From assembly GCF_014635845.1 (NCBI RefSeq), contig NZ_BMDP01000001.1, positions 806,001 to 870,000 of the forward strand: a stretch of DNA of 64,000 nucleotides, in the 5' to 3' direction. Under the pieces are notes generated by a model, which was not told where the DNA came from, did no database searches, and saw only the letters and a program-made list of their open reading frames with translations. This document shows positions 1-8,157 of the stretch, piece after piece. Source of the stretch: Oxalicibacterium solurbis. Lineage in GTDB: Bacteria; Pseudomonadota; Gammaproteobacteria; Burkholderiales; Burkholderiaceae_D. Within the stretch, counting starts at the first letter, position 1. Each line of letters begins with the position of its first letter. Both the position numbers and the translations under genes were made by a program.

Positions 1-2153
1 TTTCGTGTCGGCGGCAAATCAGTACAAACCCCTTCAAACACTTCCGCCGCCATCCCGATCGATTCACCCAGCGTCGGATGCGGATGAATCGTCTTGCCGA
101 TATCGACAGCATCGGCTCCCATCTCGATCGCCAGTGCGATCTCGCCGATCATGTCGCCAGCATGCGTACCGACGATGCCGCCGCCGACGATGCGATGCGT
201 CTCGGCATCGAACAGCAGCTTGGTGAAACCTTCGTCGCGGCCGTTCGCCACTGCACGGCCGGAAGCCGCCCACGGGAACAGGCCTTTCTCCAGTTTGATG
301 CCCTTGGCCTTGGCGTCGTCCTCTGTGATACCGACCCATGCGACTTCCGGATCGGTATAGGCGACCGACGGAATCACGCGCGCATCGAAGTAGGATTTCT
401 CGCCGGCAGCCACTTCGGCAGCGACGTGTGCTTCATGCACGGCCTTGTGCGCCAGCATCGGCTGACCGACCAGATCGCCGATGGCAAAGATGTGATGGAT
501 GTTGGTGCGCATCTGCGCGTCGACTTCGATGAAACCGCGATCGGTGACGGCCACACCGGCCTTCTCTGCACCGATCTTCTTGCCGTTCGGGCTGCGGCCG
601 ACCGCTACCAGCACCATGTCGTACAACTGCGGTTCCGGTGCGGTGACGGAAGCATCCGCTGCTTCGAACGTAACCTTGATGCCTTCCTTCAGCGCTTCGA
701 CAGCAACGGTTTTGGTCTTCAGCATGACCTTGTCGAAACGCTTTTCGTTGAACTTCTGCCAGACCTTGACCATGTCGCGGTCCGCGCCCTGCATCAGGCC
801 ATCCATCATTTCGACGACGTCGATGCGCGCGCCGAGCGTGGAATAGACGGTCGCCATTTCCAGGCCGATGATGCCACCGCCGATGACGAGCATGCGCTTC
901 GGCACGGTGCGCAGTTCCAGTGCACCGGTCGAATCGACGATGCGCGGGTCCTGAGGAATAAATGGCAGGTTCACGACCGACGAGCCAGCAGCGATGATCG
1001 CCTGCTTGAACTGCACGGTCTTCTTGCTGCCGTCGGCCATCGCGACTTCGATGTGATTGGTGCCGACGAAGGTGCCGACGCCCTGCAGCACGTTGACCTT
1101 GCGCATCTTCGCCATGCCGGCCAGGCCGGTCGTCATCTTGCCGATGACTTTTTCCTTGTAGCCACGCAGCTTGTCGATATCGATCTGCGGCTTGCCAAAG
1201 GTGACACCATGCGCAGCCATCGATGCAGTTTCATCGATGACGGCCGCCACGTGCAGCAATGCTTTCGACGGGATGCAACCAACGTTGAGGCAGACGCCGC
1301 CGAGCGTCGCATAGCGCTCGATCAGCACGGTGGACATGCCGAGATCGGCCGAACGGAACGCGGCCGAATAACCTCCAGGGCCGGCACCGAGGACCATCAT
1401 GTCGCATTCGATATCGGCCTTGCCGTTGAAACTGGCTGCAACGGGTGCGGCTTCCACCGCCTTTGGTTGCGCGGGTGCCGGTGCTGCAGGCGTCGCTGCA
1501 ACGGCAGGTGCAGGAGCCGCGGGTTGCGCGGCCGGCGCACTGGCGGCGACTTCCAGCGTCAGCAGCGGCGAACCTTCAGACACCTTGTCGCCAAGCTTGA
1601 TCTTCAATGCCTTGATGATGCCGGCGTGACTGGACGGAATCTCCATGCTGGCCTTGTCGGATTCGACCGTGACCAGCGACTGGTCTGCCTTGATCGTGTC
1701 GCCGACGTTGACCAGCAGTTCGATCACTTCGACTTCCTTGAAGTCGCCGATGTCCGGCACCGTCACTTCGACAGTGCCGCCGGCCTGGGCTGGTGCAGGA
1801 GCAGATGCAACAGGCACCGATGCAGGCGCTGCAGGTTGTGGCGCTGCGGGTTGCGCAGGTTGCGACACGGCAGCGACCGGAGCAGGCGCGGAAGGTGTCG
1901 GAGCCGCTGCAGCTTCTTCACCCTCCAGAACCAACAGCAGCGAACCTTCCGAAATCTTGTCGCCGAGCTTGATCTTCAGTTCCTTGACGACACCGGCATG
2001 GCTGGATGGAATTTCCAGGCTAGCCTTGTCGGATTCGACGGTAATCAGCGACTGATCGACCTTGACCGTATCGCCGACGTTGACCAGTACCTCGATCACT
2101 TCCACATCCTTGAAATCGCCGATATCCGGGACTTTCACTTCAATCGTGCTCAT
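1..2153 (-). CDS. lpdA: Dihydrolipoamide dehydrogenase (E3 of pyruvate dehydrogenase) with two N-terminal lipoyl domains, 3' end cut by window edge
   Basis: E3 of the pyruvate dehydrogenase complex; it reoxidises dihydrolipoyl groups with FAD and NAD+. The reading frame is open to the left edge, and the last visible residues (FEGVCTDLPP) already resemble a normal E3 C terminus, so only a few residues should be missing after about 717. Domains: lipoyl domain 1 (about 1-77, lipoyl Lys43 in ESDKAS), Ala/Pro linker, lipoyl domain 2 (about 122-198, Lys167), another Ala/Pro linker, then the FAD/NAD oxidoreductase core from about 240 with redox Cys288 and Cys293 (GGVCLNVGCIPSK) and the catalytic His/Glu motif HPHPTLGE. 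E. coli Lpd has no lipoyl domain and related beta-proteobacterial E3s usually have one, so two is odd. The start ATG is at 2153; it lies 105 bp after the proteasome-homologue gene in the same operon. Confidence 0.95.
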   Translation of the reverse strand, partial: MSTIEVKVPDIGDFKDVEVIEVLVNVGDTVKVDQSLITVESDKASLEIPSSHAGVVKELKIKLGDKISEGSLLLVLEGEEAAAAPTPSAPAPVAAVSQPAQPAAPQPAAPASVPVASAPAPAQAGGTVEVTVPDIGDFKEVEVIELLVNVGDTIKADQSLVTVESDKASMEIPSSHAGIIKALKIKLGDKVSEGSPLLTLEVAASAPAAQPAAPAPAVAATPAAPAPAQPKAVEAAPVAASFNGKADIECDMMVLGAGPGGYSAAFRSADLGMSTVLIERYATLGGVCLNVGCIPSKALLHVAAVIDETASMAAHGVTFGKPQIDIDKLRGYKEKVIGKMTTGLAGMAKMRKVNVLQGVGTFVGTNHIEVAMADGSKKTVQFKQAIIAAGSSVVNLPFIPQDPRIVDSTGALELRTVPKRMLVIGGGIIGLEMATVYSTLGARIDVVEMMDGLMQGADRDMVKVWQKFNEKRFDKVMLKTKTVAVEALKEGIKVTFEAADASVTAPEPQLYDMVLVAVGRSPNGKKIGAEKAGVAVTDRGFIEVDAQMRTNIHHIFAIGDLVGQPMLAHKAVHEAHVAAEVAAGEKSYFDARVIPSVAYTDPEVAWVGITEDDAKAKGIKLEKGLFPWAASGRAVANGRDEGFTKLLFDAETHRIVGGGIVGTHAGDMIGEIALAIEMGADAVDIGKTIHPHPTLGESIGMAAEVFEGVCTDLPPTR

Positions 2154-2258
2154 CGCTTTCGCTCCGTTACGCTTTGTTGTCGCTTTGTTGTTTATCCTGT
2201 CGTTTCGCTCACGAACCGACGGCCTGATGTTGTTTGATTCTTTATTCCCGCGCGACGA

Positions 2259-2828
2259 TCACGCCTTCACCGGGAAGCTGACGATCTGGAACGGCCCCGC
2301 AGAACTCTTGTCGAACTCCGCGCCGGCATGCACGCCGATCTCGGCGATCTCACGTGCAGTGGCCTTGCCTTCATACACGGCGTACATCGCGCCTAATGCG
2401 AAATTGCGGCCGCTGCCGATACCCCAGAAACGATCGAAGCTGAAGACTTCCCGATACGAATAAACACCGTAGATGCCGTGCGGATTGGCCACCAGCGCGG
2501 CGATCTGCGACGACTCGTATGGATCGTCCTCCTCTTCTTTCGTGTTCAGGAAATATTGCTCCTTCAGGATCTGGTGCACTTTGCTGAACGTATCGAAAAC
2601 TTCATCGCGCGTATCAAGCTTGCAATCCTCGCCCATGCCGGTCAGCAGTTTGCGCATGACCGGGAAGTGCGCGGCGGTACCTGCCAGCGTGACGTACGAG
2701 TCGCCGATCTGGAACATCTTGTTGTTCTCTTCGTACGCGTACGACAAGCGCGTATCGCCGAAGGTCACCAGCGAATCGCAGGCGATCGCAATCTCGTTGT
2801 TCTTCTTGACGACGACGCAGGTAGTCAT
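2259..2828 (-). CDS. Beta-proteobacterial proteasome homologue (BPH), Ntn-hydrolase fold
   Basis: A 189-residue protein of the proteasome beta-subunit/HslV superfamily. It matches the family described as BPH (beta-proteobacteria proteasome homologue), which is known to form double-ring tetradecamers. I chose the ATG at 2828 rather than the upstream TTG at 2834 because a strong Shine-Dalgarno sequence (GGGAGG) sits six bases before the ATG, and because this start gives MTTC: removal of Met exposes Thr1, the expected N-terminal nucleophile. Further family features are the CDSLVTFGD segment after the first strand, a conserved Lys in the N-terminal part, and GIGSGRNFALGAM, the usual GSG turn of proteasome subunits. 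No ATPase partner (HslU or similar) is adjacent. The gene lies 12 bp after aceF and 105 bp before lpdA, so it should be co-transcribed with pyruvate dehydrogenase. The substrate is unknown. Confidence 0.85.
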   Translation of the reverse strand: MTTCVVVKKNNEIAIACDSLVTFGDTRLSYAYEENNKMFQIGDSYVTLAGTAAHFPVMRKLLTGMGEDCKLDTRDEVFDTFSKVHQILKEQYFLNTKEEEDDPYESSQIAALVANPHGIYGVYSYREVFSFDRFWGIGSGRNFALGAMYAVYEGKATAREIAEIGVHAGAEFDKSSAGPFQIVSFPVKA

Positions 2829-2840
2829 GCGCAACCTCCC

Positions 2841-4202
2841 TTACAGCAGCGACTTGCGCAGATCGCCCAGCATTTCGCTCAGATAGGTCACGAAGCGCGC
2901 GCCTTGCGCGCCGTCGATCACGCGATGATCGTACGACAACGACAGTGGCAGGATCAGACGCGGCACGAACTGCTTGCCGTCCCAGACCGGTTTCATCTGT
3001 GTTTTCGACAGGCCGATGATCGCCACTTCCGGTGCGTTGATCAGCGGCGTGAAGTAGGTGCCGCCGATGCCGCCCAGCGACGAGATCGTGAACGTCGCGC
3101 CCTGCATGTCGGCCGGTTTCAGCTTGCCGTCACGTGCCTGCGCAGACAGTTCGCCCATCTCGCGCGCGATCTCGGTCACGGATTTCTTGTCCGCATCCTT
3201 GACCACCGGCACGACCAGACCGTGCGGCGTATCGGCTGCAAAACCGATGTGGTAGTACTGCTTGAGGATCAGGTTCTCGCCCTTTTCATCGAGCGATGAG
3301 TTGAATTCCGGCTGTTTCTTCAGCGCGGCGACGCAAGCCTTGATGACGAAAGCCAGCAGCGTCAGCTTGACGCCGGACTTGGCCAGCTTCTCGTTGCTTT
3401 CCTTGCGCAGTGCTTCCAGTTCGGTGACGTCCGCTTCGTCGTACTGCGTCACGTGCGGGATCATCACCCAGTTGCGATGCAGGTTCGGGCCGCTGATCTT
3501 CTTGATGCGCGACAGCGGTTCGATAGTGGTCGGGCCGAATTTCGAGAAATCCAGCGATGGCCACGGCAGCAGGCCCAGCCCGCCGCCTTCGACTTTTGCA
3601 GCCGATGTAGCCGTAGGTGCTGCTGCGGTCGAACCTGCAGCCAGCGCGCCCTTCACATAGCTCTGCACATCCTGTTGCGTGATACGGCCTTTCGGACCGG
3701 AACCGGCTACCTTGCCGAGATCGACACCGAGTTCGCGTGCGAACTTGCGTACAGATGGCGATGCATGCGCCTTGCTTGCGCCTGCACTTGGTGCTGCCGC
3801 TGCAGGCGCTGCCTGCGGTGCTGGTGCAGATACGGGAACCGGCGCTGGCGTCGGTGCAGGCGCTGCCGCAGCTTGCGGTGCCGGTTCTGCTTTCGGTGCG
3901 GCCGGCTCAGGTGCAGGCGCTTGCTGCGGAGCAGGTGCCGCTGCCGGGGCAGCCGCCTTGTCTTCCGCCGCTTCCAGCAACAGGAGCAGCGAGCCTTCGC
4001 TGACCTTGTCGCCCAGCTTGACCTTCAGTTCCTTGACGACGCCGGCGTGGCTCGACGGAATCTCCATGCTGGCCTTGTCCGATTCGACGGTGATCAGCGA
4101 CTGATCGGCCTTGACCGTATCGCCAGGCTTGACCAGCAGTTCGATGATTTCGACTTCCTTGAAGTCGCCGATGTCCGGGACCTTGACTTCCACCATGCTC
4201 AT
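2841..4202 (-). CDS. aceF: Dihydrolipoyllysine acetyltransferase (E2 of pyruvate dehydrogenase), single lipoyl domain
   Basis: E2 core of the pyruvate dehydrogenase complex, transferring the acetyl group from lipoyl-Lys to CoA. The 453 residues hold one lipoyl domain (about 1-77, lipoyl Lys43 in ESDKAS), a long Ala/Pro/Glu linker, a peripheral subunit-binding domain (about 145-185, [15 protein letters not shown] then [11 protein letters not shown]) and the catalytic domain with the active-site HRVIDG (His426, Asp430). Many proteobacterial E2s carry two or three lipoyl domains, so this one is short; the missing domains may be supplied by the two on E3 in the same operon. The start at 4202 has GGAG seven bases upstream; an in-frame Met two codons on is an alternative. 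It follows aceE by 113 bp and precedes the BPH gene by 12 bp. Confidence 0.96.
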
Positions 4203-4315
4203 TATTTTTCTCCGCTTGTTTGCGTATCACCATCATGACTGCGGGGAAGCAGGCGCAAGACATGTAACGCGCACTGCATTCCCCGTTCAGCCAGAGGAAG
4301 AATCTCTAACTGGAA

Positions 4316-7012
4316 TTACTGCGTGACCGGATTGGCTTTGTCCGGATTGATGCTGTACTTCGTGATCGCCTGCGCGACGACATCGGCCGAGATCGCACCT
4401 TCTTCAGCCAGCGACTTCAGGGCTGCAATGGTGACGAAGTAGCGATTGACCTCGAAGAATTCACGCAGTTTCGCACGACTGTCCGAACGGCCGAAACCGT
4501 CGGTGCCCAGCACCTTGTACGTACGGCCTTTCGGAATGTGCGCGCGCACCTGTTCGGCGAACGTGCGCATGTAGTCGGTAGCAACCACGATCGGGCCGCT
4601 CGTGCCTTGCAGCGACTTGGTGATATGCGCCTGGCGCGGTTCCGCGGTCGGATGCAGCATGTTCCAGCGTTCGACGTCCTGGCCGTCGCGCGCCAGCAGC
4701 GTGAACGACGGTGCAGACCAGATGTCGGCAGTGACACCCCAGTCGTTCTTCAGCAGCTCAGCCGCAGCGATCACTTCGCGCAGAATGGTGCCGGAGCCCA
4801 TCAATTGCACGCGCTGCTTGGATTTTTTCCCGCCGTCCTGCAACAGGTACAGGCCTTTCAGGATGTCCGCTTCCTGGCCGGCTTTCAGGCCTGGCTGAGG
4901 ATAGTTCTCGTTCATCACGGTGATGTAGTAAAACACGTCTTCCTGATTTTCGACCATGCGCTTCAAGCCGTCGTGCATGATGACGGCGACTTCGTGCGCG
5001 AAGGTCGGGTCGTACGGCAGGCAGTTCGGAATCGTCGATGCCAGCAGATGGCTGTGGCCGTCTTCGTGCTGCAGGCCTTCACCGTTCAGCGTCGTACGGC
5101 CGGCGGTGCCGCCGAGGAGGAAGCCGCGCGCGCGCATGTCGCCCGCTGCCCACGCCAGATCGCCGATGCGCTGCAGGCCGAACATCGAATAGAACGTGTA
5201 GAACGGCAGCATGACCCGGTTGTTCGTCGAATATGACGTTGCCGCCGCGATCCACGATGCCATCGCACCGGCTTCGTTAATGCCTTCCTGCAGAATCTGG
5301 CCTGCCTTGTCTTCACGGTAGTAGCTGACCTGATCCTTGTCGACCGGCTCGTACAACTGACCCTGGTGGTTATAGATGCCGATCTGACGGAACAGACCTT
5401 CCATGCCGAAGGTACGCGATTCGTCGACCAGAATCGGCACCACGCGCTTGCCGAGGTTGGCGTCGCGCAGCAGAACGGTCAGAAAACGCACGTAGGCTTG
5501 CGTGGTAGAGATTTCACGGCCCTCGGCGGTCGGATCGAGGATTGCCTTGAAGGTATCCAGCGCCGGCACCGGCAGTTTTTCGTCGGCCTGCATGCGGCGC
5601 TGCGGCAGATAGCCGCCGAGCGCTTGGCGGCGTTCATGCAGGTACTTGATTTCCGGCGTGTCTTCGTCCGGTTTGAAGAACGGCACTTCCGGCAGCTTGT
5701 CGTCGGCGATCGGCAGCGAGAAGCGATCACGCATTTCGCGCACGGCTTCGTCATCCAGTTTTTTGGTCTGGTGCGCGGTGTTGCGGGCTTCGCCCGACTT
5801 GCCCATGCCGTAACCCTTGACGGTCTTCACCAGCAGCACGGTCGGCTGGCCCTTGTGTTCCTGCGCCGCCTTGAAGCCGGCGTAGATCTTGTGCGGATCG
5901 TGGCCGCCGCGCAGCAGATGCCAGATGTCGTCGTCCGACATGCGCGACACCATTTCCAACAACTTCGGATGCTTGCCGAAGAAGTGCTTGCGTACGTATG
6001 CGCCATCCTTCGACTTGTAGTTCTGATATTCACCGTCCAGCGTTTCCATCATCACGCGCTGCAGAATGCCTTCCTTGTCCTTGGCCAACAGCGGATCCCA
6101 GTTGGAACCCCAGATGATCTTGATGACGTTCCAGCCGGCACCGCGGAATTCGCCTTCCAGTTCCTGGATGATCTTGCCATTGCCGCGCACCGGGCCGTCC
6201 AGACGCTGCAGGTTGCAGTTGACGACCATCACCAGGTTGTCCAGCTCTTCACGGCCGGCCACGCCGATCGCGCCCATCGATTCGACTTCATCCATCTCGC
6301 CGTCACCACAGAAGACCCAGACCTTGCGGTTGTCGGTCTTGGCAACGTCACGTGCGTGCAGGTATTTGAGGAAGCGTGCCTGATAGATCGCCATCAACGG
6401 GCCCAGACCCATCGAGACAGTCGGGAACTGCCAGAATTCCGGCATCAGCTTCGGATGCGGATACGAGGACAAACCGTTGCCGTCGACTTCGCGACGGAAG
6501 TTGACCAGTTGTTCTTCGGACAGACGGCCTTCGAGGAAAGCACGCGCGTAGACGCCCGGCGACGAGTGGCCTTGAATATAGAGCAGATCGCCGCCGTGGT
6601 CTTCGGTCGGCGCATGCCAGAAGTGGTTGAAGCCGATGCCCAGCATGTTCGCCAGCGAGGCAAAGCTCGAGATGTGACCGCCCAGGTCGCCGTCGGCGCG
6701 GTTGGCTTTCACCACCATCGCCATCGCATTCCAGCGCATCCACGAACGCAGGCGCTCTTCGTATTCCAGGTTGCCCGGGCATGGCTCGCTCATGTCAGCC
6801 GGAATCGTGTTGACGTAGGCCGTGGTCGGCGAGAACGGAACCTGTGCGCCGCGGCGGCGCGCCAGATCGATCATGCGCTCGACGAGATAATGGGCACGGT
6901 CCGGGCCCTCCGTTTCGATCACCGCTTCGAGGGCATCCAGCCACTCCTGCGTTTCCATTACATCGGGATCGTTGGCGGCTTGCGCCAATACCTGGTCGAG
7001 CTGGGCTGACAT
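4316..7012 (-). CDS. aceE: Pyruvate dehydrogenase E1 component, homodimeric type
   Basis: Thiamine diphosphate-dependent E1 that decarboxylates pyruvate and acetylates the lipoyl group of E2. The protein is 898 residues, normal for the homodimeric AceE family. The ThDP/Mg motif GDGEMDE begins near residue 235 and ends with the NCN of VVNCNLQRLDG; HAPTEDHGGDLLY and ERWNMLHP are further family segments. I start at the ATG at 7012 (MSAQLDQVLAQ) because CAGGAG lies seven bases upstream; the frame is open further upstream but the added residues are not E1-like. First gene of the aceE-aceF-BPH-lpdA operon, transcribed away from folD. The 296-bp gap upstream should hold its promoter. Confidence 0.97.
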   Translation of the reverse strand: MSAQLDQVLAQAANDPDVMETQEWLDALEAVIETEGPDRAHYLVERMIDLARRRGAQVPFSPTTAYVNTIPADMSEPCPGNLEYEERLRSWMRWNAMAMVVKANRADGDLGGHISSFASLANMLGIGFNHFWHAPTEDHGGDLLYIQGHSSPGVYARAFLEGRLSEEQLVNFRREVDGNGLSSYPHPKLMPEFWQFPTVSMGLGPLMAIYQARFLKYLHARDVAKTDNRKVWVFCGDGEMDEVESMGAIGVAGREELDNLVMVVNCNLQRLDGPVRGNGKIIQELEGEFRGAGWNVIKIIWGSNWDPLLAKDKEGILQRVMMETLDGEYQNYKSKDGAYVRKHFFGKHPKLLEMVSRMSDDDIWHLLRGGHDPHKIYAGFKAAQEHKGQPTVLLVKTVKGYGMGKSGEARNTAHQTKKLDDEAVREMRDRFSLPIADDKLPEVPFFKPDEDTPEIKYLHERRQALGGYLPQRRMQADEKLPVPALDTFKAILDPTAEGREISTTQAYVRFLTVLLRDANLGKRVVPILVDESRTFGMEGLFRQIGIYNHQGQLYEPVDKDQVSYYREDKAGQILQEGINEAGAMASWIAAATSYSTNNRVMLPFYTFYSMFGLQRIGDLAWAAGDMRARGFLLGGTAGRTTLNGEGLQHEDGHSHLLASTIPNCLPYDPTFAHEVAVIMHDGLKRMVENQEDVFYYITVMNENYPQPGLKAGQEADILKGLYLLQDGGKKSKQRVQLMGSGTILREVIAAAELLKNDWGVTADIWSAPSFTLLARDGQDVERWNMLHPTAEPRQAHITKSLQGTSGPIVVATDYMRTFAEQVRAHIPKGRTYKVLGTDGFGRSDSRAKLREFFEVNRYFVTIAALKSLAEEGAISADVVAQAITKYSINPDKANPVTQ

Positions 7013-7137
7013 AATAAGTCTCCTGATTTTTCCTGAAGCCGCCTTTTGTAAAGGCGGACGATATTTGAATCCGATTTGCACATTGTCATGTGAACGGCAC
7101 GGAGTTTAACAGCAGTTTTTAGCATTTCCAAATTACG

Positions 7138-7156
7138 GCATTACTTTTCATAATGC
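7138..7156. promoter_or_regulatory. Inverted repeat upstream of aceE, possible operator
   Basis: A perfect 6-bp inverted repeat with a 7-bp spacer, GCATTA-CTTTTCA-TAATGC, lies about 125 bp upstream of the aceE start. It does not match the E. coli PdhR consensus that I know. Its function as a regulator site is inference. Confidence 0.25.
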
Positions 7157-7237
7157 GAAATCTATTGCAATCTGCTGCCTGATTCCGCACTTTGACTTTC
7201 CTCGACCGCTCTTTCCGGGTCGCTGCAGGCTCTTCTA

Positions 7238-7243
7238 TATAAT
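7238..7243 (+). promoter_or_regulatory. folD: Candidate -10 element of the folD promoter
   Basis: TATAAT on the plus strand about 65 bp before the folD ATG. The -35 region is weak (CTTTCC-like), so the call rests on the -10 match and position. Confidence 0.4.
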
Positions 7244-7308
7244 CAGTCCTTTTCGCTTTTCATTTCGTTCGTCGTCTTCCTTTATCCGTTTTTCACTGAA
7301 CGCTTCCC

Positions 7309-8157
7309 ATGACCGCACAACTCATCGATGGCAACCTGCTCTCCCAACAATTGCGCGCCGACGTCGCCAGACGTGCCGCCGCACTGACCGCCAAAGGCAA
7401 ACAGCCCGGCTTGGCCGTGATCCTGGTCGGCGCCGATCCGGCTTCGCAGGTGTATGTACGTAATAAGGTCAAAGCCTGCGAAGACAATGGTCTTTATTCC
7501 TTGCTCGAAAAATACGAAGAAACGCTGACCGAAGCCGAATTGCTGGCGCGCATCGATGCACTGAACAACGATCCGAAGATCAACGGCATCCTGGTCCAGA
7601 TGCCATTACCCAAGCACATCGATCCGCACAAGGTGATCGAGGCGATCTCGCCGCGCAAGGACGTGGACGGCTATTCGGTACTGAGCGCCGGCGAACTGCT
7701 GACCGGCCTCCCCGGCTTCCGCCCTTGCACGCCGTACGGCTGCATGAAGCTGATCGAAAGCACCGGCACCAGCCTGAAAGGCAAGCATGCCGTCGTCATC
7801 GGCCGCAGCAACACGGTCGGCAAGCCGATGGCGCTGCTGCTCTTGCAAGCCAACGCCACCGTCACCATCTGCCATAGCGGTACCACGGATATCGGTCATC
7901 ACACGCGGCAGGCCGATGTCGTCGTCGTCGCCACAGGCCGCCGCAATACGCTGACGGCCGACATGATCAAGCCGGGCGCCATCGTCATCGACGTCGGCAT
8001 CAACCGCGACGACAACGGCAAGCTGTGCGGCGATGTCGATTTTGCCAACGCGAAGGAAGTGGCCGGCCACATCACGCCCGTACCGGGCGGCGTCGGCCCC
8101 ATGACCATCACCATGCTGCTCGTCAACACCGTCGAGGCAGCGGAAAGAGAACTCTGA
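7309..8157 (+). CDS. folD: Bifunctional methylenetetrahydrofolate dehydrogenase/methenyltetrahydrofolate cyclohydrolase
   Basis: FolD interconverts 5,10-methylene-, 5,10-methenyl- and 10-formyl-tetrahydrofolate with NADP+, in cytosolic one-carbon metabolism. At 282 residues it has the normal family length. Visible family motifs are [10 protein letters not shown] with the catalytic Lys, [12 protein letters not shown], the [15 protein letters not shown] Rossmann motif for NADP, and the C-terminal [15 protein letters not shown] signature. The ATG at 7309 starts the typical [10 protein letters not shown] terminus, although no strong Shine-Dalgarno sequence is visible. Its TGA overlaps the prlC ATG by one base, so the two genes are translationally coupled. 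Confidence 0.97.

Follow-up and report, generated by a model that had tools for sequence, protein, structure and literature searches.

The window, that is, the whole stretch of 64,000 nucleotides analysed here from Oxalicibacterium solurbis, carries on its minus strand the genes of the pyruvate dehydrogenase complex (PDC), and between those for E2 and E3 lies the gene of a proteasome relative. The features of this locus are as follows, in the 5′ to 3′ order of the minus strand.

4316–7081, minus strand: aceE, PDC E1, an ORF named from our reading of the sequence and from the published operon; GTG is the first possible start and the true start may be further downstream.
2841–4202, minus strand: aceF, PDC E2, with one lipoyl domain, an E3-binding domain and a catalytic domain (TIGR01348 above cut-off, Pfam).
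2829–2840, minus strand: gap of 12 bp between aceF and BPH, with GGGAGG resembling a ribosome-binding site (sequence).
2259–2828, minus strand: BPH (betaproteobacteria proteasome homologue), N-terminal nucleophile peptidase subunit, 189 aa (translation, PDB phmmer, Pfam).
2823–2825, minus strand: codon of Thr1, which is exposed if the initiator Met (2826–2828) is removed (translation, 204 loci).
2775–2777, minus strand: codon of Asp17 of the active site, invariant in 204/204 loci (role from PMC5777263, section 8).
2718–2720, minus strand: codon of Lys36, taken as Lys37 of T. denitrificans BPH and Lys33 of the proteasome, invariant in 204/204 loci (role from PMC5777263).
2679–2681, minus strand: codon of Gly49 of the oxyanion hole, taken as Gly50 of T. 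denitrificans BPH, invariant in 204/204 loci (role from PMC5777263).
2523–2537, minus strand: acidic pore loop EEEDD, mature residues 97–101 (translation and alignment; a substrate-recognition role is proposed in PMC5777263).
2154–2258, minus strand: intergenic stretch of 105 bp between BPH and lpd (sequence comparison).
3–2153, minus strand: lpd, PDC E3, with two N-terminal lipoyl domains, running past the window edge (TIGR01350 above cut-off, Pfam).

The ORF at 2259–2828 translates into a stop-free protein of 189 aa which starts with M-T-T (N-terminal letters MTTCVVVKKNNEIAIACD). A phmmer search of PDB at E ≤0.001 matched it to two distinct sequences, both of them BPHs: 5ovu from Cupriavidus metallidurans, the best solved match (E 9.8e-85), and 5ovs from Thiobacillus denitrificans (E 1.1e-36). 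Along with its Pfam assignment to Proteasome (PF00227), this bears out the original prediction of a BPH-type proteasome subunit, and the PDB matches together with the dN/dS values given below rule out a spurious ORF. Its nearest relatives are about 90% identical. The C. metallidurans protein (Rmet_1198; 5ovu; PMC5777263) shares with it the family, the PDC operon, the N-terminal Thr and the acidic pore loop, but belongs to another organism; the named loci closest to the window protein are those of Herminiimonas and Oxalicibacterium (86–90% identity). T. denitrificans BPH (5ovs, 5ovt) has the same fold family and catalytic residues; it is more distant, however, and lies in an ArgG operon. HslV is a related N-terminal threonine protease, from which BPH is derived according to a passage of PMC5777263, yet the window protein matches the solved BPHs more closely than HslV, scores 25.3 bits with the HslV model TIGR03692 (cut-off 157.75) and has pdh genes, not hslU, as neighbours, which rules out HslV as its identity. 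The same genome carries a separate HslV with HslU adjacent, therefore BPH is not a replacement for HslV. Anbu and the 20S proteasome beta subunit belong to the same proteasome-like family (PF00227, as described in a passage of PMC8665760), whereas our PDB search returned BPHs alone. Thus, 2259–2828 is a genuine BPH gene inside the pdh operon.

BPH and the three PDC genes all lie on one strand, as in the published PDC-operon context, and the earlier placement of BPH between the E2 and E3 genes, 12 bp after aceF, is accurate. The 12-bp gap reads GGGAGGTTGCGC, with a Shine–Dalgarno-like GGGAGG just 5′ of the BPH ATG. The 105-bp stretch on the other side ends in a leader, [CT]GGAGC[GT]AAAGCG followed by the lpd ATG, which is common to 12 members of the genus, eight with BPH and four without. 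Scanning of positions 1900–7400, which as a whole did no better than chance, gave no promoter-like or terminator-like site on the minus strand from the aceF start to the lpd start. Since the spacing is tight and no internal promoter or terminator was called, BPH, which comes third in the operon aceE-aceF-BPH-lpd, is probably expressed from the pdh transcript. It may be noted that the window E2 has one lipoyl domain and E3 two, and that by motif counts the loci L218–L221 and the Pandoraea loci L062–L069 include E2 with two and E3 with one. The number of E3 lipoyl domains was considered as a correlate of BPH and rejected, as E3 with two motifs occurs both with BPH (e.g. L016, L006–L008) and without it (L212, L214, L217), and E3 with one motif likewise occurs with and without BPH by an approximate short-motif count.

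The residues by which BPHs are recognized, namely Asp17, the Lys33 equivalent, the oxyanion-hole Gly and a long acidic pore loop, are all present in the window protein. Across 204 BPH loci, some species being counted twice via two collections, residue 1 is Thr in 198 and Ser in 6, Ser138 is found in 195, and a start codon stands exactly before residue 1 in every one (ATG 193, GTG 9, TTG 2). For this reason an alternative TTG start at 2834 is less likely, and the claim that the best start exposes Thr1 after Met removal stood up well; we infer that Met removal bares Thr1 in the window BPH. Within the order of the window, six BPHs (L155–L158, L014, L189) have Ser1 in place of Thr1. A passage of PMC5777263 describes the T. 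denitrificans and C. metallidurans BPHs (Td- and Cm-BPH) as tetradecameric double rings with the active sites inside, and by analogy the window BPH is expected to assemble into a double-ring barrel whose inner loop is acidic. The gene is under strong purifying selection and has no sign of decay: BPH dN/dS was 0.018–0.150 in 23 pairs, rough ratios because many dS values are near or above 1, and the median dN was 0.102 for BPH, 0.157 for aceF and 0.091 for lpd in the 78 of 91 pairs that passed the length filter.

Of 399 genomes sampled from the order Burkholderiales 152 have BPH, as have 15 of 30 genomes of a sample weighted to the genus and family, the window genome being included in both; in the genus of the window 8 of 13 sampled genomes have it. 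In Alcaligenes eutrophus, pdhB and pdhL were reportedly described in 1994 as separated by an unnamed ORF. In Ralstonia eutropha H16, a passage of a 2013 paper (PMC3734047) numbers pdhB as A1375 and pdhL as A1377, with room for one gene between them. A BPH gene within the PDC operon is an already known arrangement, as Fuchs et al. (PMC5777263), referring to earlier work (their reference 14), gave argG, PDC genes (e.g. in C. metallidurans) and Hsp33 as the three prevailing BPH contexts. In 149 loci of the order, with contexts assigned by tblastn, we found Hsp33 downstream in 55, ArgG upstream in 49, PDC in 16, an S4-domain/Hsp15-like protein without Hsp33 in 14 and other neighbours in 15. These loci come from 146 of the 152 BPH-positive genomes (G249, G329, G367, G392, G402 and G409 were left out) and include a second copy each in G135, G173 and G358, hence 149; a second match in G235 is not among them. 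The gene caller picked no BPH ORF in L062, L075, L077 and L100 and read five BPH regions as part of a long frame belonging to the E2/E3 cluster. Two duplicates were dropped (L001, a duplicate of L016, and L025, of L011). The one S4 protein scanned resembles Hsp15, at 97 of the 148 bits of the NCBIfam cut-off.

The 16 PDC-context loci span seven families (f1, f3, f9, f19, f20, f31, f49), and a separate scan of genome_contigs, which used query-derived patterns and is biased to close relatives, gave 46 PDC contexts and one S4 context in 47 loci. The aceF-BPH-lpd arrangement is thus present in many relatives, which rules out a strain-specific insertion and contradicts the idea of a placement found only in this strain; in the order sample other contexts, Hsp33 and ArgG above all, are commoner.

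Beyond the order, 398 genomes sampled across the phylum gave 14 matches, ten of them in the order, two in the same class (G421 and G455) and two weak ones elsewhere in the phylum (E 1.5e-4 and 5.9e-4). G455 has a Ser1 BPH between ribD and ribE with ribBA downstream (L248, 358–3543). The ribD-BPH-ribE arrangement, again with ribBA downstream, recurs in all three BPH-positive genomes of this four-genome order (L248, L255 and L256, with ribBA some 590 bp further on in L256), and the fourth genome, 73% complete, gave no BPH match. These ribD-BPH-ribE operons are a new detail; the words riboflavin and YajQ do not occur in the main text of PMC5777263, figures and supplements aside. In G421, the only BPH match among 197 genomes of its order, a Thr1 BPH is clustered with RtcB, an RF-1-domain protein, a low-molecular-weight phosphatase-like protein and an RNA ligase (L249, 286–3531). 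According to Fuchs et al. (PMC5777263) all BPHs outside Betaproteobacteria carry Ser1, and the G421 protein may be an exception to this rule.

In the BPH tree of the order sample the PDC context against the rest needs one change, the PDC set being one clade. With the PDC, Arg and merged Hsp contexts and 'other' left aside two changes are needed, which is the minimum, and with all five context labels including 'other' eight. The PDC clade sits among Hsp33/Hsp15-context sequences in this tree, which has a single HslV as outgroup and no reliably placed root (two basal branches 49). Since the PDC context forms one clade, the order conserved across families corresponds to about one relocation and inheritance; the pdh placement thus probably arose by one relocation of the BPH gene and was inherited thereafter.

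The converse situation was examined in 25 BPH-negative genomes, hand-chosen with the same family first and searched with AceF. Of these 22 were usable; L230 (G004, E2 cut by a contig end), L229 (G014) and L231 (G024) had no usable E2, and the paralogue loci L232–L236 were left out. No BPH match was found at any of the 22 E2 loci, and lpd directly follows aceF in 20 of them, G028 and G032 being the other two. In the genus of the window four of the five BPH-less genomes are readable, and there aceF is joined to lpd with the lpd leader kept. On an E2 tree of 46 chosen sequences, 24 with BPH and 22 without, BPH presence changes at least seven times, an approximate number because internal branches are weak, and one by which parsimony does not tell loss from gain. 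BPH appears dispensable for PDC and, because there is a single BPH clade with a fixed position, loss is the likelier reading of the absences.

We also compared the 16 PDC-type BPHs with 69 of the Hsp33/Hsp15 type. At 85% no column was fixed for different residues in the two sets and 47 columns were fixed in both. Nine clades within the Hsp set, nested and thus not independent, gave 0–3 such columns against its remainder in a control run at this threshold only. Lowering the threshold to 75% brings out four columns with different residues in the two types (32 E/D, 76 V/I, 119 Y/F, 124 Y/M), none of them catalytic or in the loop. The Arg type is set apart from the PDC and Hsp types combined by 12 columns. 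Had the protease been retuned to PDC, one might expect its loop to have changed more. When PDC and Hsp types are compared, identity is 0.699 in the pore loop (mature 95–108) and 0.517 over the full length; loop identity inside the two types is 0.802 and 0.743, so that loops are less alike between types than within them. Between PDC and Arg types the values are 0.373 for the loop and 0.389 overall. The power of these tests is limited and subtle specialization lies below their reach, and within it the PDC-type BPH appears no more divergent from the Hsp type than ordinary clades are from each other.

These results bear on what BPH does. Its place in the pdh operon seems to hint at its function, and the original prediction had tied it to turnover or assembly of PDC or to lipoate-dependent proteins. 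BPH would then be a protease dedicated to PDC: it would clear E2/E3 that is damaged or has failed to assemble, or proteins with lipoyl domains, and this task would be why its gene stays between aceF and lpd. The order aceF-BPH-lpd in all 16 loci of the PDC clade, over seven families, agrees with such a role, as do the 46 of 47 PDC contexts in the scan biased to close relatives. However, the linkage has a single origin, aceF-lpd is intact without BPH in 20 of 22 genomes with at least seven changes in BPH presence on the E2 tree, similar enzymes adjoin Hsp33, ArgG and ribD-ribE elsewhere, and the PDC and Hsp types have no fixed difference at 85%. Moreover, tagged BPH recovered neither PDC subunits nor HslU from C. 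metallidurans extracts ('data not shown'), and carbonylation patterns were unchanged by BPH both in extracts and in living E. coli cells (PMC5777263). A role of BPH in PDC is therefore weakened, and we regard a dedicated PDC protease as unlikely. Our searches of openly licensed papers brought up no BPH knockout study nor, apart from the work of Fuchs et al., any apparent test of BPH against PDC.

The neighbours may instead have in common a tie to oxidative damage and repair, with BPH as a redox or damage-response protease for which co-expression outweighs a shared substrate. PDC thiols and flavin, Hsp33, riboflavin synthesis and the RtcB/RF-1/RNA-ligase cluster can all be read in this manner. 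Of the 149 loci, 55 have Hsp33 beside BPH and 14 an Hsp15-like protein by itself, ribD-BPH-ribE occurs in all three BPH-positive genomes of one order and the RtcB cluster in one genome, and Fuchs et al. (PMC5777263) considered an oxidative-stress role themselves. We nevertheless give this reading a small chance, as the same carbonylation tests were negative, the ArgG context (49 of 149) fits it loosely, and a theme chosen after the neighbours were known is weak. A bolder form of it, speculative and in our view improbable, is that the gene of a damage-control protease has repeatedly re-inserted itself into operons of thiol or flavin redox or of repair, its oxidised clients lying beyond the reach of the published assays. 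The operons concerned would be those for PDC (lipoyl thiols and FAD-E3), the redox chaperone Hsp33, riboflavin synthesis and the RtcB/RF-1 RNA-repair-like cluster. That BPH is a decayed passenger, a functionless relic left in the operon, is very improbable: Fuchs et al. (PMC5777263) detected no cleavage of peptides or casein by the BPHs they assayed in vitro, and the gene, present in 152 of 399 genomes of the order, is often absent, but it is under strong purifying selection, its catalytic residues are invariant in 204 loci, and Thr1 of its relatives reacts with epoxomicin (Td- and Cm-BPH) and with MG132 (Cm-BPH; PMC5777263).

We favour, with a probability of about 0.7, the reading that BPH is a conserved general peptidase which uses the housekeeping pdh operon after about one relocation, PDC not being its dedicated substrate. 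The gene would have moved once, in an ancestor of several Burkholderiales families, from kin beside Hsp33/Hsp15, as the tree with its uncertain root suggests, and the move would have left active site and pore loop visibly unchanged, on account of which the same general job is most likely. BPH would be transcribed as part of the aceE-aceF-BPH-lpd mRNA, Met removal would bare its Thr1, and a barrel with an acidic inner loop would form as in its relatives. It would then carry out the same general unfoldase-independent proteolysis as BPHs in the Hsp33, Arg and riboflavin operons, presumably on damaged proteins or on specific short or unfolded ones. The pdh operon would serve as a source of steady expression, the level being set by the host operon; a section heading in PMC5777263 calls BPH genes constitutively expressed. 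The in vitro inactivity on peptides and casein leaves the term 'general peptidase' unproven. Against this preferred reading, negative pull-downs can miss transient substrates, and a clade with PDC context in 16 of 16 loci is also what selection for a link to PDC would produce.

BPH is a structurally solved relative of the proteasome with no known substrate or activator. As its pdh location, by our comparison, goes back to about one inherited event with no detectable specialization, searches for BPH substrates should not be limited to PDC and could just as well begin from the Hsp33/Hsp15, ArgG-YajQ or riboflavin neighbourhoods. Species of the same genus with and without BPH offer a natural knockout comparison.

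Some further neighbours were noticed. In 46 of the 49 ArgG-type loci BPH has YajQ (DUF520) on its downstream side, and in this type (e.g. L159–L161, L163, L178, L193) a Ppnp, nucleoside phosphorylase-like, or a MORN-repeat protein is often found near argG. Two loci of the BPH-S4 type, L120 and L134, share the gene directly upstream of BPH, which in L120 encodes a predicted protein kinase.
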